Source: Methanolobus sp. (GTDB taxonomy: Archaea > Halobacteriota > Methanosarcinia > Methanosarcinales > Methanosarcinaceae). From it: a stretch of 64,000 nt of DNA. The stretch is taken from the NCBI RefSeq assembly GCF_016278365.1, contig NZ_JADQBZ010000003.1, positions 1-64,000 on the forward strand, given 5' to 3'. The notes under the pieces are model-generated. The model saw only the letters and a list, made by a program, of their open reading frames with translations, was not told where the DNA came from and did no database searches. The first letter of the stretch is position 1; each line of letters starts with the position of its first letter. Below are positions 41,324 to 60,447 of the stretch, one piece after another. Position numbers and translations under genes: made by a program.

Positions 41324-41434
41324 ATGAAAGTAAGTGACCTGAGATCCACACTGGTAATGAGTGCAAGAGAGGAAGCAGTTTTTAGGAATTTCGATCTTCC
41401 AAGAGATGCCTTCCATCCTACTCTACTCTTATGA
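41324..41434 (+). CDS. Possible 36-residue gene or gene fragment
   Basis: A short frame starts with ATG after AGAGGA and reads MKVSDLRSTLVMSAREEAVF, ending 36 codons later with LLL. An A+T-rich promoter-like ACATATATAAT lies about 40 bases upstream. It looks like the 5' end of a longer gene cut off by TGA, and it stands where the conserved core gives way to the accessory island. Confidence 0.35.
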   Translation: MKVSDLRSTLVMSAREEAVFRNFDLPRDAFHPTLLL

Positions 41435-42738
41435 GGGATGCATTGAAATTAAACAAGATGCAATGGAGCACATAAGAAATTTATTACTACTGATATATGT
41501 AGATGAATAATTATATTTCTAAATTGTCCTGCAATCATTCAATCTTTACAATCCTCTGAAATTGTCCGATAATACCACCTGTGCAATTCGAGGAGTTTCT
41601 GCAGGGTTTTGGAAGGCATCTAAACATATGGCACGCAAAAACAAAAAGTTAAGAGCTAGAATAGACAGACTTGGCCGATTACTGTGGATAATTAAGTAAG
41701 GATGTAAGTTGGGTTAATTATAATTAAGTAAGGTTACAATCTTCTTTTCATAAGTCAATTTATAATTTATCCATAATGTTATTTATACATAACGATTTAC
41801 AGCGTTAACAGTCTAATAGATAGATTTGAGGAAATTGGCTCAAACAATGCATTAGATAGTGGAAAACCAGATATTGCTTTATTTCAAACTTTCAGTATAT
41901 AGCGTTTATATATATAGCTTATAGTACACAAAGACTATAGACTCAAGAAAAAAGTCTAATGCCATTGAATTTACTGTATATATCTGCCTGAAACCAGAGC
42001 TTTTTGAACAAAAAATACATTTATTCTTATAGTATATATGAATATAAATAATTTTAAAAACATTTATCTAACTATAAGCACATTTCGATCCATCTGCAAT
42101 CGGTTAGCAGGACGAAGAGAATGCCATTGATGACCCTGCAGTCATGAGCTCTCTTTCTCCCTACAATAGATTGTGGTGGTAAGTGCGGTCTAATAACCTT
42201 CTATTGTTCATTAAAATTCTCTGAATTTTATTAACATTCCCATAATGCCATTATCAGAAATAGTACTTATAATTTTGACATGGGCTCAGAATGTGGAATG
42301 GTATGATTTACATCCTATGCAGTAAAAAAGAAGGGAAAACTGAAGGGAAATATGAATAATAGAGGAAGAACTTTGCAATTAGAGTGTTAATAATTGCCTT
42401 CTATGCCCTTTCATACCAAACCCATACAATTTCTCTACATTGCCCTCTGGAATGTCGTCAAATCAATTATAGGGGGTTTCTATGGGCATTCTCATGACTA
42501 CCATACATCGAGCAGAGTATATTTTCCCACGGAGGCTTTAATCTCTGGATTTAACGTCCCCTTATATTAATTATAATTATCACGAATGTTGGAATTGAGG
42601 GTCTATGCTTCTGCCATAACATAGTCCAACAACTATTTAAAGATTTTCACAAAAACTATAAATATATCATATTATATTGTTATATTTATATTAGATTTCT
42701 AATATAACAAAGTAATTAAAAAACTCAGAAGTGAAAAA
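41435..42738. other. Long A+T-rich intergenic region at the start of the accessory island
   Basis: No convincing gene lies in these 1.3 kb. A 24-codon frame at about 41627 (MARKNKKLRARIDRLGRL) is too short to judge. AATTAAGTAAGG is repeated near 41690 and 41728. G+C-richer blocks stand out at 42085-42200 (candidate structured RNA) and 42380-42560. The drop in G+C from here on marks the border between the core chromosome and the island. Confidence 0.5.
42090..42179. ncRNA. Candidate structured RNA
   Basis: CCATCTGCAATC (42090-42101) pairs with GATTGTGGTGG (42169-42179) in an eleven-base-pair stem with one bulged T. Inside, GCAGG can pair with CCTGC. The block is clearly richer in G+C than its surroundings, as many archaeal RNA genes are. 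No known RNA class is recognised; a box-C-like TTGATGA is present but no box D, so a C/D guide RNA is not supported. Confidence 0.3.
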
Positions 42739-42891
42739 ATGACAAGAAAAATACAAATTCGCAAACAAACATATTCTTTCACATTAGATCAAAATGTGGT
42801 GCAAGAACTCGATAAAGTTTCTGGAACAACATCAAGATCTGCATGGTTGAATGACTTTCTCCATTCAAACCTATTAAGTGAGACAAACTGA
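42739..42891 (+). CDS. Ribbon-helix-helix (CopG/Arc-like) protein
   Basis: This 50-residue protein has the ribbon-helix-helix layout: a basic beta strand (KIQIRKQTYSFTLD), a helix (QNVVQELDKVSG) and a second helix after TTSRSAW. A GAAGTGA ribosome-binding site precedes the ATG. Such proteins often control plasmid copy number or partition, and it stands 152 bases before the P-loop ATPase gene that looks like a replication protein. Confidence 0.75.
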   Translation: MTRKIQIRKQTYSFTLDQNVVQELDKVSGTTSRSAWLNDFLHSNLLSETN

Positions 42892-43043
42892 ACTGATAAC
42901 TCTGAGAGCGTTCAAATTTAAACTACAATAACACAGTTAGTTAAAATGGAGAGGTTTTTTACAAGCCCTACAAATCTCATATATAAATATCCATTAAGTT
43001 CTAGAAAAGTAAAACGCTCTTAAAAATAAAAAGGTGAAACTAA

Positions 43044-44429
43044 ATGATTCCAAATACAAATAATTTAACTGATAATAAAGCATATAAAGGTTTCGAAGCT
43101 ACTAAAACTACAGATAAAATCGAAAATAACACAGATAGAATAAAGCAAAAAGCACAGCAAATCTTGGAGACCGGAGATGCTTTCAAGTATATTCTTGATA
43201 CTTGGAATAAGTACCATGTTGGAGATAGAAATACAGGAGAAATATGCTTCTGTGCAATCGGGTCAACTTACATATTGAATTCCCGTGGAATCCATGTTAA
43301 GTTGAATGGTCCAAGTGGTAAAGGAAAAAGTGATGCAGCTGATACCGTCAGTGAATTGATACCTCCTTTTAAGCTCAAAGCGACATCTATCTCTCCCAAA
43401 GTTTTATACTATGACAGAACATTAAAAGCAGGAACCTTAATTTGTTCTGATGACATCGAAATAAGTGAACCTATAGCTGAAACTATAAAGAGGTCAACTT
43501 CAAACTACCAGCGGGAAACAAAACATGCGACTCTGAAGACTCAAGAGCTTTTGGAATTATCTATTCCTCCAAGAGTATGCTGGATACTCACATCTGTGGA
43601 TAGTCTTGAAGATGAACAACTCGGGAATAGATTTATTTCTGTAGATATAAACGATACTTTGGAGCAGGATCAACTTGTTTACGATAATATTCTAATCGGA
43701 GAAATGAATAACAAGGATATTATGCAGAGTCCTGAGGATGTTCTTGTGTGCAGGCAAATCTTTGAGATAATTGGCGGTGACGACACAACACCTAAACTAT
43801 ACCAAATCGCTATACCTTTTGCCAAATGTATTGATTTTGTAGACAAAAGCAATAGAAGGAATCCAAAAATATTCTTTGATATTATACGAGCAGTTGCCCT
43901 TTACCATATAAAACAAAGAGAATTATTTAATGATTTTTATCTTGCAACTGTAGATGATTTCAATCGAGCAAAGGAAATCTATGGAAAAGTGGCCCTTAAT
44001 AGGAAAACCAATCTCACAGGTCAAGAATTAAAAGTTCTTAAAATGATGGAACAAAATTCAGGTAGTGATATTGGCTACAGTGAAATCGCTAATTACTTGG
44101 GTGTAAGTGAAACAAGAGCGAAACAAATCGTTAACGGTAAGAAGGGAAATAGTGGTCTTCTCGCTAAAGTGAAAGGTTTCAATGTAATCGATCAAACTCA
44201 ACGTATGGGAGATGAAACTTCAAGCATAGACACATCTATCAAAAAGCTTCTCTTCACATATAATCCAAGATTTGATTTTGAAATGAGTAATTTTGTTTCA
44301 TTAGTAGGATTAGTCGATGAAGCCATCTCTGAATACAAAGCCATCAACAAAGAAAATGTGGAATTAGAAGTGAATATGGATCTTGAGAGTACACATTTCA
44401 GCGAAGAGGGATCATTATCTTCCTCCTAA
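43044..44429 (+). CDS. P-loop ATPase with C-terminal winged helix, probable replication protein of an integrated element
   Basis: The 461-residue protein has a Walker A motif GPSGKGKS at residues 89-96, a Walker B-like LICSDDI at 132-138, a sensor-like WILTSVDS near 180 and an arginine-containing GNRF near 194. The C-terminal part carries a winged helix (LTGQELKVLKMM, then YSEIANYLGVSETRAKQIV). This combination is typical of helicase/initiator proteins of mobile elements. The codon usage is A+T-rich like the island. GGTGA precedes the ATG. Its neighbours are the RHH gene and the origin-like dyad 1.5 kb downstream. Confidence 0.68.
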   Translation: MIPNTNNLTDNKAYKGFEATKTTDKIENNTDRIKQKAQQILETGDAFKYILDTWNKYHVGDRNTGEICFCAIGSTYILNSRGIHVKLNGPSGKGKSDAADTVSELIPPFKLKATSISPKVLYYDRTLKAGTLICSDDIEISEPIAETIKRSTSNYQRETKHATLKTQELLELSIPPRVCWILTSVDSLEDEQLGNRFISVDINDTLEQDQLVYDNILIGEMNNKDIMQSPEDVLVCRQIFEIIGGDDTTPKLYQIAIPFAKCIDFVDKSNRRNPKIFFDIIRAVALYHIKQRELFNDFYLATVDDFNRAKEIYGKVALNRKTNLTGQELKVLKMMEQNSGSDIGYSEIANYLGVSETRAKQIVNGKKGNSGLLAKVKGFNVIDQTQRMGDETSSIDTSIKKLLFTYNPRFDFEMSNFVSLVGLVDEAISEYKAINKENVELEVNMDLESTHFSEEGSLSSS

Positions 44430-44919
44430 CTCTTTTTAATATCAATGCTTATAAGCTCTTAAAGTTCTGTTGCAAAAACAGGAAAACAACTGTATAAATT
44501 ATATGATGTACTGAGAGATAAAATGACATTAAATTAAATTTTGCCAATTTTTTTATAATTTTTTAAGTTCTTTTCTTTATTTTACCTTATTACACGTGGA
44601 TAATATCCTACCCATCCCATTATAAGTTAAAAATCACGATTACCAAACTCATAATCTAAGCATGGTGTGGTAATATCGGCATAATTATCAACTATTTGAT
44701 CTATGTCCTTTCCCATTTTGCAATTCTTTTTACAATCCCTCTGAGTTTTCCCACTCCATCACGCAGATTTCTTGTGTGCCAGTTCATCGATTTTAGAAAA
44801 ATCAAACTTAGTCTTTTAATAAGTGTTTATTTGCATAGTAAAGAATATTAAATAATTTCTTCAGGACTAAGAACCACTATTTAAATTAGTTCCATAGATA
44901 ACTTTGTCTTTTCCTCAAA
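44430..44919. other. A+T-rich intergenic region with coding scraps
   Basis: No intact gene is seen. On the minus strand short frames look like decayed coding sequence, for example 44701-44787 (MNWHTRNLRDGVGKLRGIVK) followed in other frames by DQIVDNYADITT. A run of T at about 44549 could end the ATPase transcript. Confidence 0.35.
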
Positions 44920-45061
44920 TTATAGAGTTAGCTTTTCTAACCTGAACTCAATCTTGTTACCTTTTGTAATAGTTGCTTCTTGAGCAATCTCATAGAGGAT
45001 TCTACTAATGAACTATTTCCCTTGAAATGAGTGAATTTACAGCTTTTTCTGACTTTGCCGC
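44920..45061 (-). pseudogene. C-terminal scrap of an unidentified gene
   Basis: Two adjoining minus-strand frames read AKSEKAVNSLISREIVH and, one frame over, SRILYEIAQEATITKGNK with the stop at 44920. Joined by a one-base change they form a coherent C-terminus, so this looks like a frameshifted relic. No family is recognised. Confidence 0.35.
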
Positions 45062-45070
45062 AAGTCAAAG

Positions 45071-45463
45071 TTAAATATAGTTAAGTATCAATGAAGCCAG
45101 AAAACTTGCAATTAGTCCAAGAACAAAACCAATAATAATGCCTTTATAATATCTGTTATTATTGTACTTTTCAATTTCTATTCTTTCTTTTGTGTCTCCA
45201 ACTAACGGTCTCACATCCGAATAGTACATACTTTCTAATTTTTCTAACTCTATATCATCTACTATAATTAAATCATCTTTTATTTTAGAAATCTGAGCAA
45301 AGATGTCAGAAAATCTTTCGCCTTTTGTTTTTCGTTTCTTTATCTCCAATTCTATATCTTTACATAATTTGAAAATAAGATTTCTCCATTCTGATTTACA
45401 GAAGCATTCTAGATCTTTGACGTCTATTGTGTCTAATCTGTTACTTCTTATTAAAATATGCAA
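45071..45463 (-). CDS. Tail-anchored small protein of unknown function
   Basis: The product is about 130 residues, mostly helical and charged (IELEIKKRKTKGERF, IVDDIELEKLESMYY), with one C-terminal membrane span (GIIIGFVLGLIASFLASLIL). The start at 45463 is a TTG; the same frame stays open upstream to 45583, immediately after the stop of the small basic protein, with coherent sequence (DDVWRFLSNIQSIIKIYEVE) but no standard start codon. The real gene may therefore be longer or broken. Confidence 0.5.
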   Translation of the reverse strand: MHILIRSNRLDTIDVKDLECFCKSEWRNLIFKLCKDIELEIKKRKTKGERFSDIFAQISKIKDDLIIVDDIELEKLESMYYSDVRPLVGDTKERIEIEKYNNNRYYKGIIIGFVLGLIASFLASLILNYI

Positions 45464-45583
45464 TTCATTTTCCTTTTGAGTGATATCTTTCTTATCTTCT
45501 CTAAACTCTACTTCATATATTTTTATAATCGATTGTATATTTGAAAGAAATCTCCAAACATCGTCGTTTTTTGTGGTAATGGC

Positions 45584-45733
45584 TTACCATCCCCACAATG
45601 GCTTTTTAATTCTTCTAATATAATACGCCTTTTCAGATTCACTGTAGTATATTCTATCTCCCTTGCGCCTTACGTTCTCGGCTTCTCTCCGGGTAGTATA
45701 GTATGTCCTTCCGTTTTTTGTGAAAACCGACAT
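45584..45733 (-). CDS. 49-residue basic aromatic small protein
   Basis: The frame encodes MSVFTKNGRTYYTTRREAEN, then RRKGDRIYYSESEKAYYIRR, ending KKPLWGW. It is very basic and rich in tyrosine. I believe similar short proteins occur in other methanogens, but I cannot name a family. No good ribosome-binding site is visible. Its TAA is followed in the same frame by the open sequence leading into the tail-anchored protein. Confidence 0.55.
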   Translation of the reverse strand: MSVFTKNGRTYYTTRREAENVRRKGDRIYYSESEKAYYIRRIKKPLWGW

Positions 45734-46677
45734 ATCATTTTATTGACATTCATTATTTATATTTTTTTCATTTTGATTCTGGGTGTTACCAAATCATCTT
45801 AGTCTATGCGTCTCCTTATGCAACACATACTTGACAAAGTCTCATTCTGCTGCCACTGCAACATAACTCTACAATTTGTCTATATACTAAGGGTTACTGT
45901 GAAATTTAAGAATAATCTCCTTCTAACTTTTATCGTAACCTACCGTAACCTTGAGGGGTGACGGTTAAAACATATACAAGCGGCTCACCATAACCATCGT
46001 AACCCTTTTTGGACATATGAGACAAACAGAGAGATAATTTTTTTAAAAAAAACAAACATAATTAAATAAATAATATATTATATATAAAATAATTTATTGA
46101 TACACTAATATTATATAATATATTAGTTATTGTTTTATTGTGATTCTGGTTGCGGATGCTTCTCTATGTTACCCTGTTTTAGAGTGACGATGGTTACTCT
46201 AAACAATTATATCTCCAAAATTTAGTAAATATCTACATATTTACTTCTAGATTTACAGTCACCCTCCAAGGTTACGGTAGGTTACTGTGGTTACTGTTGG
46301 AGAGTAAGAACGATTCAAATGGACCACTGTAATCATAGTATGTATTCATCTATGAAAAATGCTAATAAAATTTTTACAAATACTTCAAGGAGTATTTGTA
46401 CAAAACATTCATCAAAGCAATAGTATAGTTTTATCTGAGCAAGAAATGTAGACACCCATAGAAAGTTCAAATAACATCCATCACATTGTTGTCGGGGTGT
46501 ATACAACTAAGAAAAAGTGTACGATGTTTTGTACTTGGTACACACAACCCTTTTAATTAAATATTTATAATTAAATTTCCAAAAAATGGTTTCTATGTTT
46601 TGTCGTAAAATATTGCAAAAAGTATTAATATGTTCATAACTGTACTATGAATACTAAAAAATGTGAAATTGATGTGA
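45734..46677. other. Non-coding, repeat-rich region containing an origin-like dyad
   Basis: This 0.94-kb stretch has no gene. It contains GTAACC/GGTTAC repeats arranged symmetrically around an extremely A+T-rich core, described separately, and a perfect ten-base palindrome with a six-base centre at 46375-46400 (TACAAATACT/AGTATTTGTA). Confidence 0.6.
45892..46294. other. Probable replication origin: dyad of GGTTAC repeats around an A+T-rich core
   Basis: A 28-base arm at 45935-45962 is repeated inverted at 46258-46285 with 26 of 28 matches. Each arm contains two GGTTAC units ten bases apart and a GTCACCC unit. More units occur at 45892, 45999, 46192 and 46289, with the GTAACC orientation mainly on the left and GGTTAC on the right. 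The centre (46029-46140) is almost pure A/T and would melt easily. The layout matches an origin with initiator boxes flanking an unwinding element. Confidence 0.6.
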
Positions 46678-47649
46678 ATGGTGCCAGGTTTATTAGATGA
46701 AACTTTATTGAATCATACTTATCCACTCGATTTATTTGAATCGATATTTATTATTGTAGTTTCTCTTTTGTCAGTAGCCCTAATTACAAAAAAGTTTATC
46801 AAAAACGAGCATTTTGAAGATAGGTCAACGAAAGAAAATTTTATAGTTATTTATTCATTTGCTTTCCTATTTTTGTATTTCGCTTTTGCAATTTTCTTAA
46901 AAGAATCTGCGTACTATATCGGATTTACTTTTATCCTGGTGTGCGAAGTTTTATTTTTGCAGTCGCTGAGAGTTTCACGCATTAAAAAGACATCTAGTTA
47001 TCCAGAAAAATATCAGTATAATTCTACAATTGCATTTATTAGTACATCTTTAATCAGTGTATTATATTTACTTTTTATTTTCATTATCGTTGTAAAATCT
47101 AGCTTTTCAATTGACGAAGCTAATGTAAATATTTTTGGGACTCTACTTTTAATTGCTGTCTTTAATACACTATATGGAATTTCTATTGAAGATAATTTAA
47201 CTCAGCATTATCAATTACATGCATATTCTTATTTGTTTATTGTTATTGCAGTTTTTTTAACTATCATGGAAAAATCATGGTTTACAACATCATTTTTTAA
47301 TTTAACTGCATATTTTTTAAGCCTGTTTTCTGCAAAGGAAATATCTCTACATAAAGATAATAAGTTTTATAGCTCGACTTTTAAAGTTATGCTTATTATA
47401 CTTGTTCTAACAGGTTTTATATCTAGTGCATATATATCTTCGTACATACCGATAGTAACTTTCACTGCAATCGGTTTGTTAGTTGTCGCTTCTTTAGTAA
47501 CTTTGAAAGATAAAAAGTATGATGAGACACAGCAGATTTATCTCTTTTGGGTTATTGTTTTGTGTTGTATTATACTTTATTTTCTACTGTCAGGTAAGAT
47601 TTTTATACTTAGTTACTTTTATGATGTTTTTATAGGGCTATTGGCTTAA
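46678..47649 (+). CDS. Multi-pass membrane protein of unknown function
   Basis: The 323-residue product has about ten hydrophobic spans with short polar loops and no recognisable motif. It is very A+T-rich like the rest of the island. The ATG at 46678 is in frame with the whole protein, without a clear ribosome-binding site. Its stop is directly followed by a cas1 tail remnant on the other strand. Confidence 0.5.
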   Translation: MVPGLLDETLLNHTYPLDLFESIFIIVVSLLSVALITKKFIKNEHFEDRSTKENFIVIYSFAFLFLYFAFAIFLKESAYYIGFTFILVCEVLFLQSLRVSRIKKTSSYPEKYQYNSTIAFISTSLISVLYLLFIFIIVVKSSFSIDEANVNIFGTLLLIAVFNTLYGISIEDNLTQHYQLHAYSYLFIVIAVFLTIMEKSWFTTSFFNLTAYFLSLFSAKEISLHKDNKFYSSTFKVMLIILVLTGFISSAYISSYIPIVTFTAIGLLVVASLVTLKDKKYDETQQIYLFWVIVLCCIILYFLLSGKIFILSYFYDVFIGLLA

Positions 47650-47725
47650 ACTGACTTTTTTCCACAACTCCAACCTTTCTTTTACATGAGAATTCAAGGT
47701 AAATGACTTATTAGCTTTGGCATTT
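47634..47725 (-). pseudogene. Remnant of a cas1 C-terminus (second copy)
   Basis: The minus strand encodes NAKANKSFTLNSHVKERLEL followed by WKKVSLSQ and a stop. This matches the last residues of the cas1 pseudogene at 51.6 kb (NAEANMAFTLNAHVKERLEL, then WESI). Everything upstream of this tail is missing. It is therefore a scrap of a second Cas1 integrase gene. Confidence 0.7.
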
Positions 47726-47755
47726 AGAATATTCATAGAAATTGAATCATAAGCG

Positions 47756-47789
47756 ATCCATAAAAAGAATGTGATGATTTTTCATCACA
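47756..47789 (-). terminator. Terminator after the RNase III remnant
   Basis: TGTGATGA and TCATCACA pair perfectly around a four-base loop (47770-47789), and on the minus strand the hairpin is followed by TTCTTTTTA. It lies 28 bases after the stop at 47817. Confidence 0.7.
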
Positions 47790-47816
47790 CAAAAGTGAAA
47801 TTAATATCTCTTGATG

Positions 47817-48239
47817 TTATGAAGGAGTCTTCTTTAAAGATTTAAGATGATTTCTAGCGGCTTCAGCTGCGGCCTTTTTAACTTGTGTTCCTTTTCCCGT
47901 GGACACAAGTGAACCATAACTTTCGAGTCCAACAATGTATTCTTTATCATGATCTGGGCCGTTTTCCTCAATCAGAGAATAATTAACGTTATCTACATCA
48001 TACTTTTCTTGTACTCTACCTTTCGGATTTGAATCTGGCATTTCTCCCAAAGCATTTTCAAGATCAAAGAATTTATTCACAAACTCTTTTGATTTAGAAA
48101 TTCCTTGATCAAGGTAAATTGCCCCTATGAGTGCTTCGATCACATCTGCATATACATCATCAATATTCAGTAGATCTCCATGGATTATATGCTCCTTAAG
48201 GTTAAGTCTACGTGCTACAGGAACTAAACTTTCGTTCAG
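47817..48239 (-). pseudogene. rnc: N-terminally truncated ribonuclease III gene
   Basis: The frame encodes the distal part of the RNase III catalytic domain (ADVIEALIGAIYLDQG, with the catalytic-type Asp/Glu pair) and a complete double-stranded-RNA-binding domain (ENGPDHDKEYIVG, KKAAAEAARNHLKSL). The RNase III signature helix ERLEFLGDAVL that should precede is absent, and a TAG lies in frame before LNESLVPVARRL. An internal GTG at 48143 could give a 108-residue product. The nuclease is presumably inactive. Confidence 0.75.
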
Positions 48240-48431
48240 CTATATGCTTTGTATTGTTTACAACACATGTAATCATTACACAACTCACAAGCCATGCATC
48301 TAGTGAATAGAATACTAATCAAAGAGTATGGCTTTATGTTACCTATAACTTTCAGGTAATGTTCATATTAAAAAGCAGAAAGTGAAGTTCTTTTAAGTTG
48401 GCATACATATCCAAATTAAAAGCAAGTGTAG

Positions 48432-49751
48432 CTATTTCGATTCATTTTGAAGTGCCCATTTCTGTTCTAACAATTGATGTAAGGGAGATGTTTTTAAGTT
48501 TTTGATGAACTCTTCATTCGAAATATACCAGGAACATTTGTAATCAGAATAAGAGATAATATGCTTTTTCTGTAAATATTCAAATATATGTAGCCTGAAG
48601 TTAATACTCTTATATTTAATCTTTTCACATACTCGGTAAGGATTTTCTATATAAACAGGCTTATCGGCAATAAAATCACATATTTTAATAATAGCAGTAT
48701 GTGCAATTTCGGGATTATATAAGCTGAGATCTGTTAAATATTGAATATTGCCTTTCTCTAGTTCCAACTCATTTATTAACTGGTCAATAATTTGCTTTTC
48801 ATTTGCAATATTACTTAATTCACAAGTATTTGACTTGATTTTTAAGGAATCGAGAGGAATTATTGTTTCTTGCTGTATTATCTTTGATATAAACAGTTGG
48901 TTGCATAATTGGATTTCATCTTGGAGCGCATTAAAGAATATTTGCTCTTCAACATCTTTTTGAATTATATTTTCAATATCGGTGTTTATTATTTCTTTTA
49001 TAATCTTGTCTTCATTCTTTTTATCAAAGGCTATCTGTTCCATCCACTGCTCAAATTCAAACAAGCATTGAGGTAATTTCCTTAATCCTTTTCCTTTCAG
49101 CACTTTATCTATGAAATGATCTATAGTGATTTCACAACCATAGCCTTCTTCAAAAGATCCATTGGGAATATAAAGTATGAAATTATCTCCCATATCTAAA
49201 AACAGAGGTTTTTTTGTATTAAGTATCCATTGACGTGCTCGTTTCCAATAATATTTATAAAAAACAATATCTGATTTTGAATCGTACACACGATAAAGAG
49301 TAATATCGATAATGCGTTTACGTGGTTTTTTTAACTTTTCTTCAGGAGCAGGATTCGTAGCATCAAACAACCAGACCATATCACTATAAAAGGTCTCTCT
49401 AGCCTCTATATCTATTTGGCTTATCTTTGAATGTTGAAGTTCAATAACTAGATTCTCTTTATTTTTGATATCTGCTACGTGGCGTATGCCATTTTTTTCA
49501 ATTATAACTTCACAATAATCACTGTGAACTTTCTCTTTCCATCCCAAATGCCAATCCGTTTCTTTGCCATATTCGCTACAAAAGGTGCCTGGTGGATGAG
49601 AGAAATAAGGAATTTTTTGACTGCCGCAGTTATGCCTCAAAGGCCTTTCATTTAATGGGTCACAAAATGGACAAAAAACTTTAATTTGACTCACTTTTAA
49701 AGAAGGAGATGCTTTTACTTTCTGCCCATCAACTGTTTTTGCATAAAGCAT
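48432..49751 (-). CDS. CoiA-like PD-(D/E)XK nuclease-family protein
   Basis: The first 130 residues look like competence protein CoiA. A zinc-like set (C27PFC30, H40NC42, H52, C58) is followed by WHLGWKEKVH, HVADI with D94, and VIELQHSKIS with E104 and Q106, the nuclease core. The following 300 residues are unique and helical. In bacteria CoiA acts in DNA uptake and recombination; related proteins occur in defence islands. In this archaeon the role is unknown. The gene is complete. Confidence 0.7.
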   Translation of the reverse strand: MLYAKTVDGQKVKASPSLKVSQIKVFCPFCDPLNERPLRHNCGSQKIPYFSHPPGTFCSEYGKETDWHLGWKEKVHSDYCEVIIEKNGIRHVADIKNKENLVIELQHSKISQIDIEARETFYSDMVWLFDATNPAPEEKLKKPRKRIIDITLYRVYDSKSDIVFYKYYWKRARQWILNTKKPLFLDMGDNFILYIPNGSFEEGYGCEITIDHFIDKVLKGKGLRKLPQCLFEFEQWMEQIAFDKKNEDKIIKEIINTDIENIIQKDVEEQIFFNALQDEIQLCNQLFISKIIQQETIIPLDSLKIKSNTCELSNIANEKQIIDQLINELELEKGNIQYLTDLSLYNPEIAHTAIIKICDFIADKPVYIENPYRVCEKIKYKSINFRLHIFEYLQKKHIISYSDYKCSWYISNEEFIKNLKTSPLHQLLEQKWALQNESK

Positions 49752-49837
49752 AAACTTGATATGGTAGCTGCATTAGTTAAATTTAACCACCTGATATTTT
49801 TGTTATGTAGAGTATCAATTAAGATTAACATCACCTA

Positions 49838-50024
49838 CTAAAATATGTGTTTGTCATCGATATTAAAAAACCATTTAGAATTGTTGTTACCTTGTTTTAA
49901 CGCTTCGAGAATTTCTCAGAACCATTTTTTATTGATATCATGCACTATAGAAACCTTACTTTTCCTCATTGCCATTAACACAACCTGTTTTTGGGAATTA
50001 AATTTGTTTTCATTAAGGAATCTT
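49838..50024 (-). pseudogene. Decayed coding frame of unknown origin
   Basis: The minus strand reads a hydrophilic sequence (FLNENKFNSQKQVVLMAMRK, DINKKWF, then after TGA at 49916-49918 EILEALKQGNNNSKWFFNI) with a stop at 49838. One stop codon breaks an otherwise coherent frame. No family is recognised. The surrounding gap 49752-50243 holds no other gene. Confidence 0.35.
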
Positions 50025-50243
50025 AACTAGATTAACCGCAGTGAAGATTTCTTAATTATGTTCAAATTGCACTCCCCTCACTATTAGAAGGGGTTATAGG
50101 TAAGGCCAATAAACCGAACTTTAAATAATAATTTATATGTATTTGCAAATGAAAGTGTAAAAAAGCAGAGCTCTTAAAAAATATACTTCTGTATTATTTC
50201 AAAAATAGAAATAAAAAGTATGAGATTTGGAAACTTTTTGTCT

Positions 50244-51545
50244 TCAAATTAACTCATAACATTCATCCCACTCAAAATACATCGATTCAGGTTCAATACT
50301 CCCATAGCCTTTTTCTGCTAAGTAATTACGAACTTTTGTCAATGCATCAGATTGAATATCTTCAATCACATCTTCAATTTCCATCGGATAACAATAATAG
50401 GGGTCAGGATTAGTATATACTTCAAAAAAAGCATTAACATCAAACATATGTTTATCCGAACCATCATTGTAAACGACATTTATATCATCAACATATATCG
50501 CTTGGTTTTCATATTTAACTAGAACAAATGAAACATTTTCAATTTCGGGGATATAATAATTAAAGCTTAAATCAGAAATATCAAATCTAAACTTTGATAA
50601 AATATCCTTTATTTTTTCATTCAAACGTTTTTTGTTCTCATCTCCCAAATTAGAGAATTTTTCCTTACATTTAATTATCGAATTAAGATTAACAGAGATA
50701 GGTTCAGCAAGAATTGAATTTATTTCAGCTTTATTTTCTAGTTCTAAATACGAAATATTAATTGTGTTTATTTTTACAGAAATTGGAACATGTGACTTGT
50801 CAAGAATGTAATTCAAAAATGGTGTGAATTCAATGTCACCCGTTCTTGGATTCTCACTTTTAAAGTCTATTATTTCTATGTCTATTCCGGTCTGTTCTTT
50901 GAATTCAAGGATGGTTTGGTCGGATTTAAAGTCTTTTTGATTGGTAGTCAGGAAAAAAATATGATCCATATCAGGATTACAGTGTGTTTTGACATAATCT
51001 ATTATTGAAAACCAAATTACAGTGTCTTTGAAACCATCATCACCAACTGGGCGATTGTTTTTTTTATCATCAAATTTTGGTTTGAAAGGTAACTCCTTTT
51101 TGATTGATTTATCTATAATTGTAGGAAGATGTTCATTATTGCAGTAAGGGATTATTTCAACACCATACTTTGAAAAGAAGTTAATACCAGCTAATTCAAG
51201 GGTGTGAGATACGGTTTCATCATGAATTTTTTTTAATATATTATGTAATTCTGTTTCTTCAAGATGTTTAATTTGATTTTGAAATTTACTAATTTCTGCT
51301 TTTATGAAATATTCTTTTATAGAATATATCTCATCAACAACTAGTTTTGGAATCAAAATTTTGATAGCTTTGTAACCAGAAAATACTTTATTGAAACCGT
51401 TTCTTAAATATAGCAAATCACGCATCAAAATAATTTCAAAAATGTTGTAGCTAACTTTGTTGCTATAAAATAAGTTAGTGTCTAAAAATAAGTAATAAGA
51501 CTCTATTTTCCTCTCACTAAATTTTTCTGGTGATTTCGTTAACAT
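50244..51545 (-). CDS. PIN-domain protein (DUF4935-like)
   Basis: The N-terminal 230 residues form a PIN ribonuclease domain. The first acidic residue is D22 in LFLDTNLFY, the conserved glutamate is in PKLVVDEIYSIKE, and the third site is GDDGFKDTVIWFSI, followed by HIFFLTTNQKDF. The remaining 200 residues are beta-rich and unassigned. Most PIN proteins are RNases of toxin-antitoxin or defence systems. No antitoxin gene is adjacent, so a stand-alone role is likely. Confidence 0.75.
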   Translation of the reverse strand: MLTKSPEKFSERKIESYYLFLDTNLFYSNKVSYNIFEIILMRDLLYLRNGFNKVFSGYKAIKILIPKLVVDEIYSIKEYFIKAEISKFQNQIKHLEETELHNILKKIHDETVSHTLELAGINFFSKYGVEIIPYCNNEHLPTIIDKSIKKELPFKPKFDDKKNNRPVGDDGFKDTVIWFSIIDYVKTHCNPDMDHIFFLTTNQKDFKSDQTILEFKEQTGIDIEIIDFKSENPRTGDIEFTPFLNYILDKSHVPISVKINTINISYLELENKAEINSILAEPISVNLNSIIKCKEKFSNLGDENKKRLNEKIKDILSKFRFDISDLSFNYYIPEIENVSFVLVKYENQAIYVDDINVVYNDGSDKHMFDVNAFFEVYTNPDPYYCYPMEIEDVIEDIQSDALTKVRNYLAEKGYGSIEPESMYFEWDECYELI

Positions 51546-51604
51546 AAAATAAATAATTAACTTTCTCCTATATATTCTGTTCTAGATGAGAACAAAATAA
51601 CTCA

Positions 51605-52210
51605 TCATATGCTTTCCCACAACTCTAACCTTTCCTTGACATGAGCATTCAAGGTAAACGCCATATTAGCTTCAGCGTTCTTCTTCATGTAATGCAGAGT
51701 ACCCTTTGAAAATCCCATGTTTTCCCAATCAGTATAGGATATGCTTAATATTTTCTGCCTGATATCATCTGAATCCGGTCTTTCAATTGTATATACAGGT
51801 TTGCAGAAATCACCAGACTTTTTCTTTTCAACAAGATACTGAGCAAGCTCCCTAGTCTTCAATAATAGAGCATAACTCCACATTACAGACTGCTTCTGAT
51901 ATGGAATTTTCTTTTTCATCCACTTATTGAACTCTTCAGTTACCTTCTTTGCTCCTGAAGGCTTTAGCCTGAGAGAATAACTTTCAGTCCTGATAAAGTC
52001 CTTATTATTCATTTTTCCTGATTCAATCAGGTTGATAACTGCAAGATCAAAAAAGGAATCTGAAAGGCTCGTGAAGATCATATGCTAAACTGTTCTTGCT
52101 TGGATTCATTTCATGCAAGAACTTGACATGAGAATCAAGACCAACATAGTTAATTACTTTCAGGTATTCAGTTTCAAGCAATTAATAGCCATATTGAGCA
52201 GGCTCTTGAT
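51605..52210 (-). pseudogene. cas1: Frameshifted C-terminal half of CRISPR integrase Cas1
   Basis: Joining three frames gives SLLNMAINCL, EYLKVINYVGLDSHVKFLHE, NPSKNSLAYDLHEPFRFLF and DLAVINLIESGKMNNKDF through LHYMKKNA to the end. This is the catalytic C-terminal domain of Cas1, including the histidine of FLH and the aspartate of the AYDLHE stretch. Frameshifts lie near 52170 and at the run of six A at 52049-52054. The N-terminal lobe is missing, and no cas2 or CRISPR array is nearby. The last frame could give a 158-residue product from 52081. Confidence 0.82.
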
Positions 52211-52318
52211 GTAAAAAAGGCTCAGGAGTTCATTTGAAGAAAAAAACAAAGGAAGGGGACTTAAATTTCAATTCTAAACTAATGAAAACAATTATTAAAA
52301 GTGCAATTTAAATCAAAC

Positions 52319-53104
52319 TTATGAATTTTTCATCAACATCTTTATAATGAAAGTGATTATTGGCATGCATTGGGAGGAATCCTTTAAAAGGTTTTTAATA
52401 ACCTTGAACTTAGAACATAACCACGTTTTTCCTGTTTTTTCCTCATCAAGAATTTCGTCGAGAATGCTGATTATTTCTTCTTTATTATCAGCGTCATCAT
52501 TTTGAACAATTGATTTAATATCCTCTATTGAATCATCAATTGTCGATTTAAGAAATTCAACAATAATTTCATTTTTTTGTTCAATCGATATATTGTTAAT
52601 GTTACTAGTATTGATCACAATACCAGATGGAATGCTTTCTTTTTTAACGGTTTCAAGCTGAAAACTTTCTATATCATATGCACCAATTACATTGGAGATA
52701 TCGTGTACAATAGAAATTTGTATTTTTAAGCTTTTGATAAATAGTTTAAATATAGTTTGGTTTTCAGAAGGGTTTATTTCTTTAGGGATATAACTCAATA
52801 AACCGATGCAGTCTATGATTTTAATGTATTCAGCTTTAAAACAATCTAAATTCGATGGTGCATGCTTTTCAACTACTTTCATAGATTCATTATACCATAA
52901 ATTATACGTATTTCTTAAAATATCTTGTGAATTTGAATAAACGCCTTCTGGGATGCCCCAATAATATACTGATTTTTTGTTTGGTCCAAATGACCTTATG
53001 TCGTTGGAGATATCTAACGTTAAGAAATAATTTTTTGCACTCCTTTCTATCTCCCATGAAGTATCTAAAAGCCTTTTGACTTTATCATCTAGGTGTGAAT
53101 ACAT
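52319..53104 (-). CDS. Protein of unknown function
   Basis: The 261-residue product is helical with an acidic region (STIDDSIEDIKSIVQND, then EEIISILDEILDEEKTGK) and a C-terminal hydrophobic segment (MPIITFIIKMLMKN). It has no motif I recognise. Proteins of this style (AbiTii-like or DNA-damage-type helical bundles) occur in defence islands, but I cannot assign it. It is divergent from the DUF2254-like gene. Confidence 0.55.
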   Translation of the reverse strand: MYSHLDDKVKRLLDTSWEIERSAKNYFLTLDISNDIRSFGPNKKSVYYWGIPEGVYSNSQDILRNTYNLWYNESMKVVEKHAPSNLDCFKAEYIKIIDCIGLLSYIPKEINPSENQTIFKLFIKSLKIQISIVHDISNVIGAYDIESFQLETVKKESIPSGIVINTSNINNISIEQKNEIIVEFLKSTIDDSIEDIKSIVQNDDADNKEEIISILDEILDEEKTGKTWLCSKFKVIKNLLKDSSQCMPIITFIIKMLMKNS

Positions 53105-53379
53105 AACTTTTCTTTTAAGCGTTTTTAGTTATTAATATATTATGTTTAATGCTGCAACTAAGAGCGTACAAAAAATTGAGATAACTATAAATCTTCACTA
53201 TTATGAGGAGATATAGTTAACAAGAAAAAACGGAACTTTCCAATAAAATTATGAATATATATATGTCTGTAATTTTACAAGATATTATATTCCCTATTTC
53301 TTAACCAAGCATGATGAAAATATCTTTAAATACACAGCAGAATAATATATAGTATTACTTCTTTTTTAAAAGAGATTAT

Positions 53380-54915
53380 ATGAACTTAAAATCCTGCTTT
53401 GATAAGTCTTCAATCAAAAAAGTAAACCATAATAAAAGCAAAATACCTTTAAATAGCGAGTTTTATTTTAAAATTGGGAGCTACTTTCTTTTAGCAGGTG
53501 TTTGCATTTTACTCATCCCAATTACATCTAATACTGAATTAATGTTTTCCGATGCAAATAGCGCCCGTTACATGATTAGCACTTTGATTCAAAGTGAAGC
53601 GGCTATTTTTGGAGTTGTTATAACATTAAGTTTGGTTGTAGTCCAACTAAGTGCAAGTTCTTTTTCACCAAGAGTTACAGAGATATTTATGAATTTTAAA
53701 AAAAACCCTGACTTTTACGTGTTAATACTAATTTATTTAGGGGTCATGGTTTATAGTACCTTAATATTAAAAATTATTACCGATGATTTAAATTATGGAC
53801 AAAACTTTGATATTCAAACATGTATTTGGAGTACTTTTTTTCTTGCTTTTTTTGCATTTCTTGCACTTATTATCTACATAAAACGTACAATGAATTTATT
53901 GAAACCACAAAACATCATTAATATCTTATCTGAACACATAACATCTGAAAACCTTGAAGAATATCTTGTTAAAGCCATTGGATACAAAATATTGTTAGAA
54001 CCATCTAGGTTTAAAATAATAACTCATATCAAGTACAAAATAGACTCGTTGAGTTATCTGTTAGGTATTACCAACTATGATAAAGAAGATGATGATCCTC
54101 TTTTGCCATTAGTAGATATAATTCGGGGTTCTTTGATGAAATATGATTATGAAACATCTACAAAGGCACTTAAAACACTCGAAGATAAAATTGTCAATTT
54201 AATTGAAGAAGATGACTTTGATACTTTAAAATACTGCCGATATGCACCTAAAGATGTGGACTATTCTAAAATATCAGTTGGGGCAGCAAACTTCAAAGAA
54301 TATCAACATTATCTAATAAAGAAAATCTACAAAAATATTTTTAATCACTTTGAAAGGATGGGACAATTAGCAATAAAGCATCTTGACTATCACTCATCTA
54401 GAGAAATTATTACAATCATAAGCCATTTAATAAATAAAATTTTGGAAAAAGAAAGTGTAAACGATCAGGCAAAGGCAACAATTAATGAAGGTTTACTTTC
54501 TTTACAAACAATAGGAATAACCGCTTCTGAGAACAATATGAATGATATTGTTACGGATGTTTCAAAAGAGATTCTAGAAATTGGTCATCTTTGTATATCA
54601 CAACAGCTAGGTTCCAATGCACATAAATCTTGTGAGATATTAATTAAATTAAATCCTAACTCTGTCCATACATGGTTATTTGCGGGAGACACAGCTTTTT
54701 TGTTGGAAATGTATACTAACGCAATTAATGCTTTTAAAAAAGCCAACGAAATTGAAGAAACTCCGCAAGCTTACTCCAAATTAAAGAATATTTATAAAAA
54801 ATTAGGGTTTAAGAATGAAGAAGAAGTTGCTTTAAGTGAAGAACTTTCTCTTTTGAAGAAGGAGGCATATAAAACAGACATTTCTTCAATAATTGATGAT
54901 TTAGGTACCAGCTAG
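53380..54915 (+). CDS. DUF2254-like membrane protein with C-terminal TPR
   Basis: The 511-residue protein has four N-terminal spans and the DUF2254 signature: ISTLIQSEAAIFGVVITLSL followed by VVVQLSASSFSPRV. The long cytoplasmic part ends in a tetratricopeptide-like repeat (AGDTAFLLEMYTNAINAFKK, then KLKNIYKKLGF). DUF2254 function is unknown; the fusion to TPR suggests a sensing or scaffolding role. The ATG follows a weak AAAGAG. Confidence 0.65.
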   Translation: MNLKSCFDKSSIKKVNHNKSKIPLNSEFYFKIGSYFLLAGVCILLIPITSNTELMFSDANSARYMISTLIQSEAAIFGVVITLSLVVVQLSASSFSPRVTEIFMNFKKNPDFYVLILIYLGVMVYSTLILKIITDDLNYGQNFDIQTCIWSTFFLAFFAFLALIIYIKRTMNLLKPQNIINILSEHITSENLEEYLVKAIGYKILLEPSRFKIITHIKYKIDSLSYLLGITNYDKEDDDPLLPLVDIIRGSLMKYDYETSTKALKTLEDKIVNLIEEDDFDTLKYCRYAPKDVDYSKISVGAANFKEYQHYLIKKIYKNIFNHFERMGQLAIKHLDYHSSREIITIISHLINKILEKESVNDQAKATINEGLLSLQTIGITASENNMNDIVTDVSKEILEIGHLCISQQLGSNAHKSCEILIKLNPNSVHTWLFAGDTAFLLEMYTNAINAFKKANEIEETPQAYSKLKNIYKKLGFKNEEEVALSEELSLLKKEAYKTDISSIIDDLGTS

Positions 54916-55043
54916 GCATAATCAACCAACCTCTTCACTGCCGGAGTGTTCAAATTCAAATCTCCATTTTCTCTTATCCTTTGCTTAATCCCCTGAAACC
55001 TGCTCCTAGAAACTCCCATAACTTCTGCTTCTGTTTGTGACAT
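54912..55043 (-). pseudogene. Relic with a helix-rich C-terminal tail related to the 57.8-kb fragment
   Basis: The minus-strand frame reads KVLRMSQTEAEVMGVSRSRF, QGIKQRIRENGDLNLNTPAV and KRLVDYA. It aligns without gaps over about 44 residues with the end of the fragment at 57836-58318 and loosely with the Cas1 tail pattern. The rest of the gene is gone. Its stop overlaps the convergent stop of the DUF2254-like gene. Confidence 0.5.
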
Positions 55044-55128
55044 TCTTAGTACCTTTTCCTAATCTCTTGCATATTGATAAATTCCTGAAGTTTCTTATGA
55101 AACCAATTAAACAATAAAATAAATATAT

Positions 55129-55360
55129 TTTTGTCGTTGCCAGTTATTTCAAAATAAGAGATGGCGTTAGATATGTAAACAAAGCATTACTTGTTGTTGC
55201 CGCCGTTAGAGAAAATGGTTACAGAGATATTGGGTTGAAAATAGCTGATAATGAAAAATCGATGTTCCGGGAAGATATTTTGTTGATTTAACAGAGAGAG
55301 GATTAAAGGGTATAAAATTGGTTGTTTCTGATGTCACAAAGGGATTCAGAAAGCAATAGA
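55129..55360 (+). pseudogene. IS256-family transposase, central catalytic fragment
   Basis: Plus-strand frames read FVVASYFKIRDGVRYVNKAL, VAAVRENGYRDIGLKIADNE and, after a frameshift, DLTERGLKGIKLVVSDVTKG. These match the catalytic core of IS256/Mutator-type transposases. The first catalytic aspartate (VDASYFK) is valine here. The piece has no start, no end and at least one frameshift. Confidence 0.75.
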
Positions 55361-55443
55361 TGGGCAGCGTAACTAATTTTCTGTAAAATACAATAGTCCT
55401 GTACCTCTTAGAATAATTGGACAAACTAAGAAGGTACAGAACC

Positions 55444-55599
55444 ATGAATCTATATGACCTTTTAGAAGATTATTTTGTCGATAGTGAAGATGCTGTAAAG
55501 ACTCTTATAACCTGTTTCTTGAACCATGTTATGGAAGTTGAGGCCTTACAGCAATCCGGTGCAGGAAAATATGAAGGCAGTGTCTCACATTTGCTGTAA
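55444..55599 (+). pseudogene. IS256-family transposase, N-terminal fragment
   Basis: ATG at 55444 opens a frame MNLYDLLEDYFVDSEDAVKT followed by CFLNHVMEVEALQQSGAGKY, the typical N-terminus of these transposases, then runs into a stop after 51 codons. It stands downstream of the catalytic fragment, so the two come from different insertions. The preceding bases (about 55396-55440) may be a transposon end. Confidence 0.75.
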
Positions 55600-55622
55600 A
55601 TTCCCTATACCTCTATTTGTTC

Positions 55623-55745
55623 TTATTCTTCCATAGATAAATATCTGTTTCCTGTGATCCATTCTTCATTGATATCTATCAATATTGAGACTTGCAGTCT
55701 CAATAGCGACTCATCATTAGAGAATGCCCCAATGACCTTACTTCT
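55623..55745 (-). pseudogene. IS256-family transposase, C-terminal fragment
   Basis: On the minus strand the frame reads SKVIGAFSNDESLLRLQVSI, LIDINEEWITGNRYLSMEE and a stop, the usual end of archaeal IS256-type transposases. It lies in the opposite orientation to the two neighbouring fragments, so at least two separate insertions decayed here. Confidence 0.75.
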
Positions 55746-55872
55746 CCTTTTGAAACAGTAATCAGATTATGATTTTCAAAAATTCCGAAAATACTAACAA
55801 CCTAAATAAATAGCATAATAATAGCATAATCTAAGAAATGACAAAAAATCTAACAGTCTGCTTTGAATTTAA

Positions 55873-57825
55873 TTATTTACCACAACAGTGCTTATATTTT
55901 TTATTTGAACCACACCAACATCGATTGTTTTTACTCAACCTTCCGGTTTCTAGTTTTTCACGGATAATTTCAGTCGGATTTTTTTTTCTCATCGGTTTTT
56001 CGGCATGGTCGATCTCACCTTGAAGATAAGAATAGTACTTTTCAATACCTGAACTATATCCATGTATCAGTGTAAATTTTGATGGAGGCAGATCACTTGT
56101 TTTTGAAAGTGTACCATGATTCAAAAAATAACCTAGAAAATCAATTTCATCGAGTGAACTGATTTCTCGAGTTTGCTCCAAATTGACTCGCTCTATCAGA
56201 TATTTAATGAAGTCATCTGAATTCTCTAATATTTCAGTTATAATTAACAAATCGTATATGCTTACGGCAAATGGATAATGATTGCCACACAACAGTTCTG
56301 AATCCCATAATTTTACTGTGTTTAGAGAAGTTGAATATTCTTGGAACGATTCTAAAGTGATATTGACAAGAAAAATATGATTGTAGTCTCCTTTTTTGAT
56401 TTTCATGATTTCTTTTTGATTTTTACGATTGCTATCATAGAAAACTACTTGGTCTGAGCTCGAAATATATTTAAGTGCTCTTTTCGACTGCTCAAAAGCA
56501 TCAGTGATATTTTTCTTGAAGTCACCTTTAGATACTGTTAAAATATCCTTCCTTCCAGCAATACTCCGTCTCTTTTTAGCTTTAATTTCTACAAGAAGCA
56601 AATTATCATTGTATGAAACGATTCCATCAATTTCAGGATCTTTATCTTCCTCTTCTTCATTAATGGGATAATAAAGATTCTCATGAATTGTAGCAGTTGG
56701 AAAGATGTTATTCAACAGTTCAAATGATTTTTGTGCAAAATACTTACCTTTTATTTTAGCATAGTTGTTGAACTCTTTTTCAGAAAATAGCGATTCTATA
56801 ATAGGGATAACATTTCTTACAAGATGCGGGGTCAAAAAACAATAGTAATTTCCATCTATAGATATGATTGGTTTTAAATCAGTTTTGCTTTCGTCTAGAG
56901 GTAACGTCCAATGTTTATTGCAACCAAATGTTAAAGACAACAAATTAAGAACATTTTCGTTTATTCTATTATTGACAATTATTTTATAGCTCTCCTTGGA
57001 ACCAATACTCATTACATCTTGTTGGTATTGTTCTAGTAACTCCTCACCGATATAACTTATATACTCATCAATTTGAGTTTTAAGATCATCGGATTCTTCA
57101 AAATTCTCCTTTGCAAATTTAAGAAAATCATCGTGTCTTTCTTTCGATTTGGTTGCTTTATCCTTCATAAAAGCAATTTTTTGCCTTTCGACTTCATCAA
57201 TAGTTTTAAAGTATTCTTCTATTGTGAATCCGTATTTCTTCAAAACTCCTTCTAATCGAGAATCAGAAAATAACTCTAAAGATATTTTCTTATAGTGAAG
57301 AGGGAACGCATCACCCCTGATAAGCAAAAAATTGGTGATTGTTTTATAAAGAATTTTTTTTTCAATTGGGTTTAACGATTCATCTAAGTAATTATCGTAC
57401 AGTAAATAATCACGTAGAGCGTTATGAAAATCATCCAGAATCTCAAGTAACTTCTTAATATATTCATAATTTGAAGTTTCACGATAATATTCATATTTAT
57501 TTTTTAAAATTATATTTTGAACTATCTCAACTTCCAATTGGCTATTAGTAGATTCATATTCACTATATTGTTCTGGATTAACAATCAAATTCTCTGTTGT
57601 AACATACCCTAAAGCATCTAAAGGATTAAAATGATCTAAAATTAATGTCTCTATTTCAGAGAGTAAATTATACATTTTCTGTTTTATTAACGGAAAATCA
57701 ACTATCATCTTTTGCTTTACGTCTTTATTATCATCCTCACTCAAATTAGATTTATAAATTATTGACCGACCTTTTCGTTTTATGGTTATAGGTCCACACT
57801 CTATAACTTCATCATATTTGCTCAT
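55873..57825 (-). CDS. Large protein with PD-(D/E)XK-like core and C-terminal SEC-C zinc motif
   Basis: The 650-residue protein has a helical N-terminal half, a nuclease-like core with PEIDGIV (D400) and LLVEIKAKK (E413, K415) and a C-terminal SEC-C motif with C636, C638, C647 and C648 (CWCGSNKKYKHCCGK). SEC-C motifs bind zinc and contact nucleic acid or protein partners. The combination suggests a DNA- or RNA-targeting enzyme, perhaps for defence. No methylase partner is adjacent. The gene is intact in an area full of relics. Confidence 0.65.
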   Translation of the reverse strand: MSKYDEVIECGPITIKRKGRSIIYKSNLSEDDNKDVKQKMIVDFPLIKQKMYNLLSEIETLILDHFNPLDALGYVTTENLIVNPEQYSEYESTNSQLEVEIVQNIILKNKYEYYRETSNYEYIKKLLEILDDFHNALRDYLLYDNYLDESLNPIEKKILYKTITNFLLIRGDAFPLHYKKISLELFSDSRLEGVLKKYGFTIEEYFKTIDEVERQKIAFMKDKATKSKERHDDFLKFAKENFEESDDLKTQIDEYISYIGEELLEQYQQDVMSIGSKESYKIIVNNRINENVLNLLSLTFGCNKHWTLPLDESKTDLKPIISIDGNYYCFLTPHLVRNVIPIIESLFSEKEFNNYAKIKGKYFAQKSFELLNNIFPTATIHENLYYPINEEEEDKDPEIDGIVSYNDNLLLVEIKAKKRRSIAGRKDILTVSKGDFKKNITDAFEQSKRALKYISSSDQVVFYDSNRKNQKEIMKIKKGDYNHIFLVNITLESFQEYSTSLNTVKLWDSELLCGNHYPFAVSIYDLLIITEILENSDDFIKYLIERVNLEQTREISSLDEIDFLGYFLNHGTLSKTSDLPPSKFTLIHGYSSGIEKYYSYLQGEIDHAEKPMRKKNPTEIIREKLETGRLSKNNRCWCGSNKKYKHCCGK

Positions 57826-57835
57826 AAATTATGAA

Positions 57836-58318
57836 CTAAGATGCACATGTATAAGTATTTTTTGAAATAGTCGAGAAGAAGTTCTCCACCAAAACTTTTA
57901 GCGCCCCCTTCCCATAATTCAGCTTCTTGACTTGCTTTATCTTATCTTTTGTTCTTTTTAGTACTCCTGTCCATAATCCCCATTCTCTTGCGTCCTTAGG
58001 TTCCAGAGAAAGCGCCGATTCATGAAAAGTCTTGAAATCAATATATGTTTCAACTTTATTGCTCTCTAATTCCTGCATTTCAACCTTATTGGCTTCCTTG
58101 CCAATGTACACGCATCCTTTAGGTTTCAGGTGTCTCCTTTGCAGTATTCCAGTATTTCCTTCAAATTTGGCTTCAGGATGATTTATGTATTCAAGGAATA
58201 CGTCACTTAATGGTTTCCAGTACTCTCTTCCAGAAAGTATGTTTCTTATAATGTAGTCTATGACCTCTTTCTCAACTGCTACCTGTAGATTTTTGTTGAA
58301 AGGAGCAATTGGTTTAAT
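57836..58318 (-). pseudogene. N-terminally truncated gene of unknown family
   Basis: The frame is open from 58318 to the stop at 57836 and reads PFNKNLQVAVEKEVIDYIIR, GREYWKPLSDVFLEYINHPE, RRHLKPKGCVYIGKEANKV and finally LSLEPKDAREWGLWTGVLKR with LNYGKGALKVLVENF. It begins directly after a TAG, and its first available start is a GTG at 58111, deep inside conserved-looking sequence, so the 5' part is lost. The C-terminal 44 residues match the relic at 54.9 kb. Confidence 0.55.
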
Positions 58319-58851
58319 CTACTCTTCATATTTGTCATATTTATAAAAGCAAAGTTTTATGTTTTAATTTATATTAACAAGCAAGTATTTAATTTCATTT
58401 ACCATCTAATATTCATTGGTAAAAATGAATTTTTGACTTACATTCCTATAAAATAAAATTCTATTGAAAATAAATTTATTCTGAATAAGCATTCCCTCTA
58501 TATAAGTGTTCTCTTAATTTTTCAGAAAAACTTATATAATATTACTACGTTGCAGAGCCTCTGCAATACGATTATTGAAGGGATACAGATATATAGATTA
58601 AATTCCATGTATAGTTGTACACAAAAATAATGTGTACATAAGATAAATTATTTCAAAATCCCCAGAATTCAAGAAATCAAATAATTTGTAAAAATTATGA
58701 TTATGGACATTAGTTGAAAACATAGACACTTGATAAAATGAAGAAATTAAGCATGGGTTAATTTCCATACTAATTCTTTGCAAAAATAAGGGGATTTGAA
58801 ATGGATTTATTATGATGAAAGTAGAAAATAGAAAATAGAATTGGTGAAAAG
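58319..58851. other. Non-coding region with promoter block and long leader
   Basis: This A+T-rich stretch contains the conserved promoter-like block at 58519-58583, about 270 bases upstream of the small acidic protein gene. No coding frame is seen. If the block is the promoter, the transcript would have an untranslated leader of nearly 300 bases. Confidence 0.5.
58519..58583 (+). promoter_or_regulatory. Conserved promoter-like block, copy A
   Basis: The block reads TTTTCAGAAAAACTTATATA at its start, then carries ACTAC, GCAGAGCCT and GAAGGGA. It matches 61823-61886 in about three quarters of positions. The purine-rich CAGAAAAACTT followed by TATATAA looks like a BRE plus TATA box. The rest of the block lies where the transcript would begin. 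Confidence 0.55.
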
Positions 58852-59094: not shown

Positions 59095-59106
59095 TAGGTA
59101 TTGTAG

Positions 59107-59140
59107 AAGGTCACAATCAATATTGATTGATGGCCTTTTT
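59107..59140 (+). terminator. Hairpin terminator after paralogue A
   Basis: AAGGTCA-CAATCA pairs with TGATTG-ATGGCCTT around an ATAT loop, with one bulged A, and is followed by TTT. It lies between convergent genes and could serve both. Confidence 0.7.
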
Positions 59141-59148
59141 CAATATAT

Positions 59149-60120: not shown

Positions 60121-60146
60121 TTAATCACTCCAAAAGTTTCTACTAA

Positions 60147-60338: not shown

Positions 60339-60447
60339 TTTATTAAATAGTTAAAGCAGATAAATGGATATCAAATATATTATACCTTTAAATATATTGA
60401 TATATTTTCTATAGAAAAGTAATTTTTTCAATGCCTTGGAGAGAAAA

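Follow-up and report, generated by a model that had tools for sequence, protein, structure and literature searches.

To our knowledge, hardly any replicons of methanogens are well understood, and genetic work in Methanosarcina depends largely on one plasmid. Archaeal origins served by Orc1/Cdc6 consist of inverted ORB boxes around an A/T-rich melting region, placed beside the initiator gene. In the plasmid pRN1, an experimentally required origin lies directly 3′ of the copG-rep operon, and across the pRN1 family this origin conserves its form although its sequence differs from one member to the next (PMC4234260). A further group, arCOG07809, comprises prim-pol/helicase/HTH/Zn-finger proteins of small integrated archaeal elements and was predicted to be a replication protein (Makarova et al. 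2014, PMC4158269). The accessible part of that work presents the protein as a prediction only, describes no origin for it, and places the pRN1 protein in another arCOG (PMC4158269).

Here we analyse a stretch of 64,000 nucleotides (the window) at the start of a 277-kb contig. Within it, a dyad of GGTTAC boxes occupies a 1.2-kb intergenic stretch 3′ of a P-loop ATPase gene (rep), with one ORF between the two. In our view this dyad is most likely an ori, a double-stranded replication origin, belonging to a plasmid-like element of 40.4 kb that is integrated in a Methanolobus-type host. We favor this reading because many relatives of the Rep protein have equivalent dyads, and it is this comparative evidence that we regard as decisive. 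The features of the locus are collected in Table 1.

Table 1. Coordinates of the proposed origin, the rep operon and the island border in the window.
Feature	Position	Strand	Evidence
Left attachment core CCATCC, 6 bp	41413..41418	.	Flank joins in congeners
Integrated element (40,447 bp), portion inside the window	41419..64000	.	GC drop, empty sites, junctions
22-bp near-palindrome TTATATTAGATTTCTAATATAA, a probable operator for RHH control of the rep operon	42686..42707	.	
50-aa ribbon-helix-helix (RHH) protein, directly upstream of rep, CopG-like position	42739..42891	+	RHH_3, sub-threshold
Rep, 461-aa P-loop ATPase, Walker A GPSGKGKS, Walker-B-like LICSDD, C-terminal winged helix	43044..44429	+	
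Rep C-terminal (winged) helix-turn-helix part, presumed box-binding domain	44016..44183	+	Weak matches
GGTTAC box, outer left	45892..45897	+	Box count
Left arm, two GGTTAC boxes 10 bp apart, reverse	45935..45968	-	Direct reading, repeat scan
Inner left half-site, box at 45999	45991..46006	-	Inverted partner of 46181-46196
A/T core, 93% A/T, presumed melting region	46032..46131	.	Composition scan
Inner right half-site, box at 46192	46181..46197	+	Repeat scan, box count
Right arm, two GGTTAC boxes 10 bp apart, forward	46252..46285	+	Direct reading, repeat scan
GGTTAC box, outer right, 9 bp past preceding box	46289..46294	+	Box count

The inverted arms reported in the initial annotation were found again by direct reading: when 45935-45962 (GTAACCTACCGTAACCTTGAGGGGTGAC) is set against 46258-46285 read as its reverse complement, 26 of the 28 bases agree, and the pair lengthens to the 34-nt arms of Table 1 (88% matches), which are separated by 283 nt. 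Within the left arm, GTAACCTACCGTAACC is the exact reverse complement of the right side. The longest exact inverted stretch in the dyad is 19 nt, compared to a maximum of 15 nt when the 1.5-kb dyad region was shuffled 300 times with dinucleotides preserved, and a composition-weighted inverted-repeat scan gave z = 17 for the 2 kb that follow the ATPase gene on its 3′ side. GGTTAC occurs 28 times in the 64 kb; 8 of these occurrences fall inside 45892-46294, a stretch of 403 bp in which 0.13 would be expected (Poisson P ~1.5e-12), and their orientations run + - - - and then + + + + across the dyad, as two opposed arrays with helical spacing. The single boxes that had been noticed outside and inside the arms are likewise present (at 45892, 45999, 46192 and 46289), and a second inverted pair, formed by the inner half-sites, adds to the symmetry of the dyad. 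The centre, previously described as almost pure A/T, has the highest A/T content of any 100 bp in the 40.4-kb island.

Two checks suggested at the outset gave no signal. GC skew along the island does not switch cleanly where the dyad lies, and the GGTTAC double box has no match outside its own genome among 26 congeners and the plasmids searched. In viral contigs the double box has many matches, but these are on unrelated contigs and the pattern is too short to be informative. At one relative locus (L018, genome G026), ~160-180 bp 3′ of rep, GGTTAAGGTAGGTTCA stands between boxes and is near the window arm GGTTACGGTAGGTTAC; this likeness could be either chance or a relic.

The proposal that the dyad belongs to an integrated element is borne out by comparison with congeners. 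From roughly 41 kb to 82 kb the GC content is down to 0.30, from ~0.45 outside, and in three congeners the site is empty, with both flanks joined. The left flank stops at 41418 and the right flank restarts at contig position 81860, with CCATCC as the common core. Together, the flank ends and the exact shared core define an island of 40,447 bp (41419-81865), whose right border lies beyond the window. The ends of the island were searched for a long direct repeat and none was found, the core being just 6 bp. Tyrosine recombinase genes are located at the right end. The insertion target is a gene conserved in the genus (MKVSDLRSTLVMSAREEAVFR...), which is split after ~32 codons into pieces at 41321-41418 of the window and 81866-82319 of contig C5, the 3′ piece restarting at an ATG. 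Because the dyad is inside the island and relatives have an empty site, it belongs to the integrated element. The cargo of the island looks defence-like (window 48432-57825 and contig C5 62463-74422, L021): on contig C5 there are a type III restriction gene (62463-65639) and a modification gene (65636-68623), a UvrD helicase with a PD-(D/E)XK nuclease (68630-71359) and a weak Piwi-domain protein (73007-74422), and the cargo also includes a PIN-domain protein and a NERD/SEC-C protein.

The reading frame and ATPase motifs of Rep are intact. Its ATPase domain has no match in Pfam, PHROG, NCBIfam or solved structures, no primase domain was found in the window Rep, and it matches no nicking-Rep family. 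Weak Pfam HTH matches at the C-terminus recur across the family, and weak wHTH matches were obtained in PDB. An AlphaFold prediction with two sequences had a pLDDT of 34.8, too low for judging the fold, with the HTH part alone being better predicted. The initial annotation had coupled both the ATPase and the RHH genes to the dyad. For the ATPase this holds up, given its homologs with dyads at their 3′ ends. For the RHH protein we prefer another role: since its gene comes with a separate palindrome (42686-42707) in which GGTTAC does not occur, the protein is more likely to be an autoregulator of the rep operon than a box-binder.

Pairwise searches, which are independent of our profiles, identified relatives of the window Rep with E-values down to 3e-63; viral-contig and phage searches yielded none. 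With family profiles that included the window Rep among their seeds, homologs were detected in 31 of the 186 genomes that represent the order, and in 73 of 393 for the phylum. Several of these relatives are fused to a primase, either Prim-Pol PF09250 or NrS-1-type. Another relative is carried, along with many CTTCCT repeats, on an 18,044-bp contig (L089; contig C6 of G151) that consists of two 9.03-kb units joined head to tail as a dimer, its halves being 91.6% identical. The primase fusions and this dimer contig make Rep look like a plasmid replication protein. The dimer contig is likely a free plasmid of the Rep family that uses another primase type. By eye, the ORF upstream in this contig resembles a CHC2-type DnaG primase.

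If the dyad is an origin, relatives of Rep would be expected to have dyads in equivalent positions, even with other boxes. Inverted repeats reached p <= 0.01 against shuffles in 9 of 32 3′ flanks (1 kb each, 2 kb for the window locus) and in 1 of 34 5′ flanks. At the family level, 18 loci gave 12 strong inverted repeats within the 45 kb around the 3′ end of rep and 6 in the other 248 kb (binomial p = 1.4e-6, for a zone that was partly picked post hoc). In another set of 20 loci, most of which belong to different families within the phylum, 8 have a dyad with a score >= 20 at the rep 3′ end, several of them inside the last part of rep. When the zones were fixed beforehand, p <= 0.01 was reached at 7 of 20 gene 3′ ends in fresh loci, one of these seven being a short hairpin and possible terminator, as opposed to none of the 20 5′ flanks and none of the 20 gene 5′ ends; loci that share a genome are only partly independent. 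In the inverted-repeat scan, a majority of the Rep homologs tested gave no significant dyad, which could be due to boxes that are too short or too scattered for the scan, or to another design.

The distance between dyad and gene also varies: in most relatives the dyad is within ~0.7 kb of the rep stop, and in the window it is 1.5 kb 3′ of rep, farther out but still in the wider zone. In G148, whose Rep is the closest to the window Rep (42%), 30-nt arms lie within the 3′ end of rep. The dyad was also seen within the rep coding sequence at L273, L282, L285, L286, L287 and L069. Where this is so, the same DNA would be both code and binding site; the in-gene dyads apparently fall in the tail between the HTH and, in some cases, a C-terminal Zn-finger-like motif.

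Relatives that keep the replication gene and lack the repeats had been named as evidence against an origin. The GGTTAC spelling is indeed absent from the relatives, but many of them have dyads of their own instead. Box sequence differs by element, being GGTTAC in the window, TGGGGAAA in G172, TGGTACA in G111, TGAGAA in G163 (boxes TTCTCACGTA), ATTTTTGA in G025, and TGACAGCA and GTGCAAA in further elements. The layout recurs: in most elements the left array has one orientation and the right array mostly the opposite one, boxes within arrays are often spaced 9-11 bp, and the facing arrays mostly span ~230-350 bp from outer edge to outer edge. Four Methanosarcina-type elements, with Reps 51-64% identical, have a related TTTCCC-type box and some flank similarity, so these four are not independent. 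In the rep 3′ regions of several Methanosarcina-type elements (L066, L073, L075, L076, L081), a second motif bounds the box arrays, with CGCTATC at the left edge and GATAGCG-GTAGACA at the right edge; it is possibly a second protein site.

As a positive control, the same scan recovered the dyad of the host's own orc1/cdc6 locus, an inverted AGAGAGACCCCATGATTTCAAATGGA pair upstream of orc1/cdc6 (L094:5321-5504, contig C12), which is likely the chromosomal origin of the host. No GGTTAC array is present at this dyad. The two orc1/cdc6 genes that score above the family cut-off are found on other contigs rather than on the island. We considered whether the island dyad could itself be an Orc1/Cdc6 (ORB) origin and rejected this, the sequence of the host dyad being different. 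Orc1/Cdc6 origins and the island dyad are alike in layout but differ in box sequence and in gene location. The initial annotation was thus right that the GGTTAC box is not the usual archaeal ORB. Its further suggestion of a new type of initiator needs correcting: a wholly new type it is not, since a family of this kind had been predicted in 2014.

Plasmid centromeres typically combine helically spaced box arrays with RHH proteins, and the dyad could instead be a partition site at which the RHH protein binds the box arrays, in the manner of ParR/ParG, and segregates the element. An RHH gene is present in the same element, and a ParA-like gene occurs in the region of one relative element (L019). 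However, among the island proteins scanned (some small ORFs being left out) there is no ParA or other partition NTPase, and the palindromic operator of the RHH gene itself does not contain GGTTAC. Opposed arrays around the top A/T stretch, tied in many elements to the 3′ ends of rep, suit an origin better, and we consider a centromere improbable. The dyad also lies between divergent ORFs, 45463(-) and 46678(+), for which it might serve as an operator. This we find very hard to credit, given that the arms are more than 380 bp from both start codons, that eight boxes symmetric around an A/T core would be unusual, and that equivalent dyads elsewhere are inside or just after rep and not between divergent genes. 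With ~350 bp, 34-bp inverted ends and an A/T centre, the dyad further resembles a MITE (a small non-autonomous transposable element) or the end of an IS with terminal inverted repeats, an outcome that the initial annotation had regarded as fatal to its proposal. Nevertheless, the arms are single-copy in the genome, with none in 26 congeners and none in plasmids, the boxes extend beyond and within the arms, and no transposase adjoins the arms at their borders, which leaves a transposable element with a negligible likelihood.

A sub-case of the origin reading, rather than an alternative to it, is that the origin is real but dead, the element being permanently integrated. In favor of this, the element sits inside a conserved gene, which it interrupts, and no free copy of it was found in the assembly. 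On the other hand, the reading frame and ATPase motifs of Rep have been kept, recombinase genes are present, and the arms are almost perfect, suggesting recent selection. A dead origin is possible, but it seems to us the unlikely case.

Taking the dyad as an origin, the winged helix of Rep would bind the GGTTAC boxes and two Rep assemblies would form, facing each other. ATP use by Rep could then open the A/T core. Because the window Rep has no primase, we propose that the host primase would then make the primers; in several relatives, this step may fall to the primase domain fused to Rep. The upstream RHH protein would repress the rep operon via the 42686-42707 palindrome, like CopG in pRN1.

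It is tempting to see in these loci an undescribed archaeal origin class, a view for and against which we find the case evenly balanced. In such a class, facing element-specific box arrays ~300 bp apart, often embedded in the 3′ portion of the gene for the initiator, would be read by a P-loop ATPase family without a Pfam or PDB match, with box and initiator specificity co-evolving, in one of the commonest methanogen replicon families. The dyads would supply a cis element for a replication protein family that was predicted in 2014 without one, and they raise the question of how Rep initiators switch their target boxes. With rep and a defined 0.4-kb origin that follow a simple rule in dozens of genomes, there are also candidates for new shuttle vectors.

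Compared to known systems, the locus combines shared and distinct traits. The pC2A-type Methanosarcina plasmid is a native replicon of the same archaeal family as the window host. Its RepA is reportedly a nicking rolling-circle initiator, whereas the window Rep is a P-loop ATPase. The pRN1 family (CopG/orf56 - orf904 RepA) shares with the island a gene order in which an RHH repressor precedes a replication ATPase that ends in a winged helix at its C-terminus, and its origin 3′ of copG-rep gives the gene-origin layout an experimental precedent (PMC4234260). However, pRN1 has as its origin a single uninterrupted stem-loop of 100 nt, while the window has two box arrays ~300 bp apart with an A/T core; a contiguous 100-nt stem-loop is absent 3′ of the window rep, and there is no long hairpin beside rep. 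The proteins differ as well, pRN1 Rep having a prim-pol domain and an SF3 helicase and the window Rep having no primase and an ATPase without a Pfam family. The elements of arCOG07809 are described as small, whereas the window element is 40 kb. Judged by domain architecture, the Rep family may be arCOG07809-like: arCOG07809 shares with it the domain order of primase, P-loop ATPase, HTH and sometimes a C-terminal Zn finger, as well as similar hosts, an integrase nearby and primase-less variants (PMC4158269).
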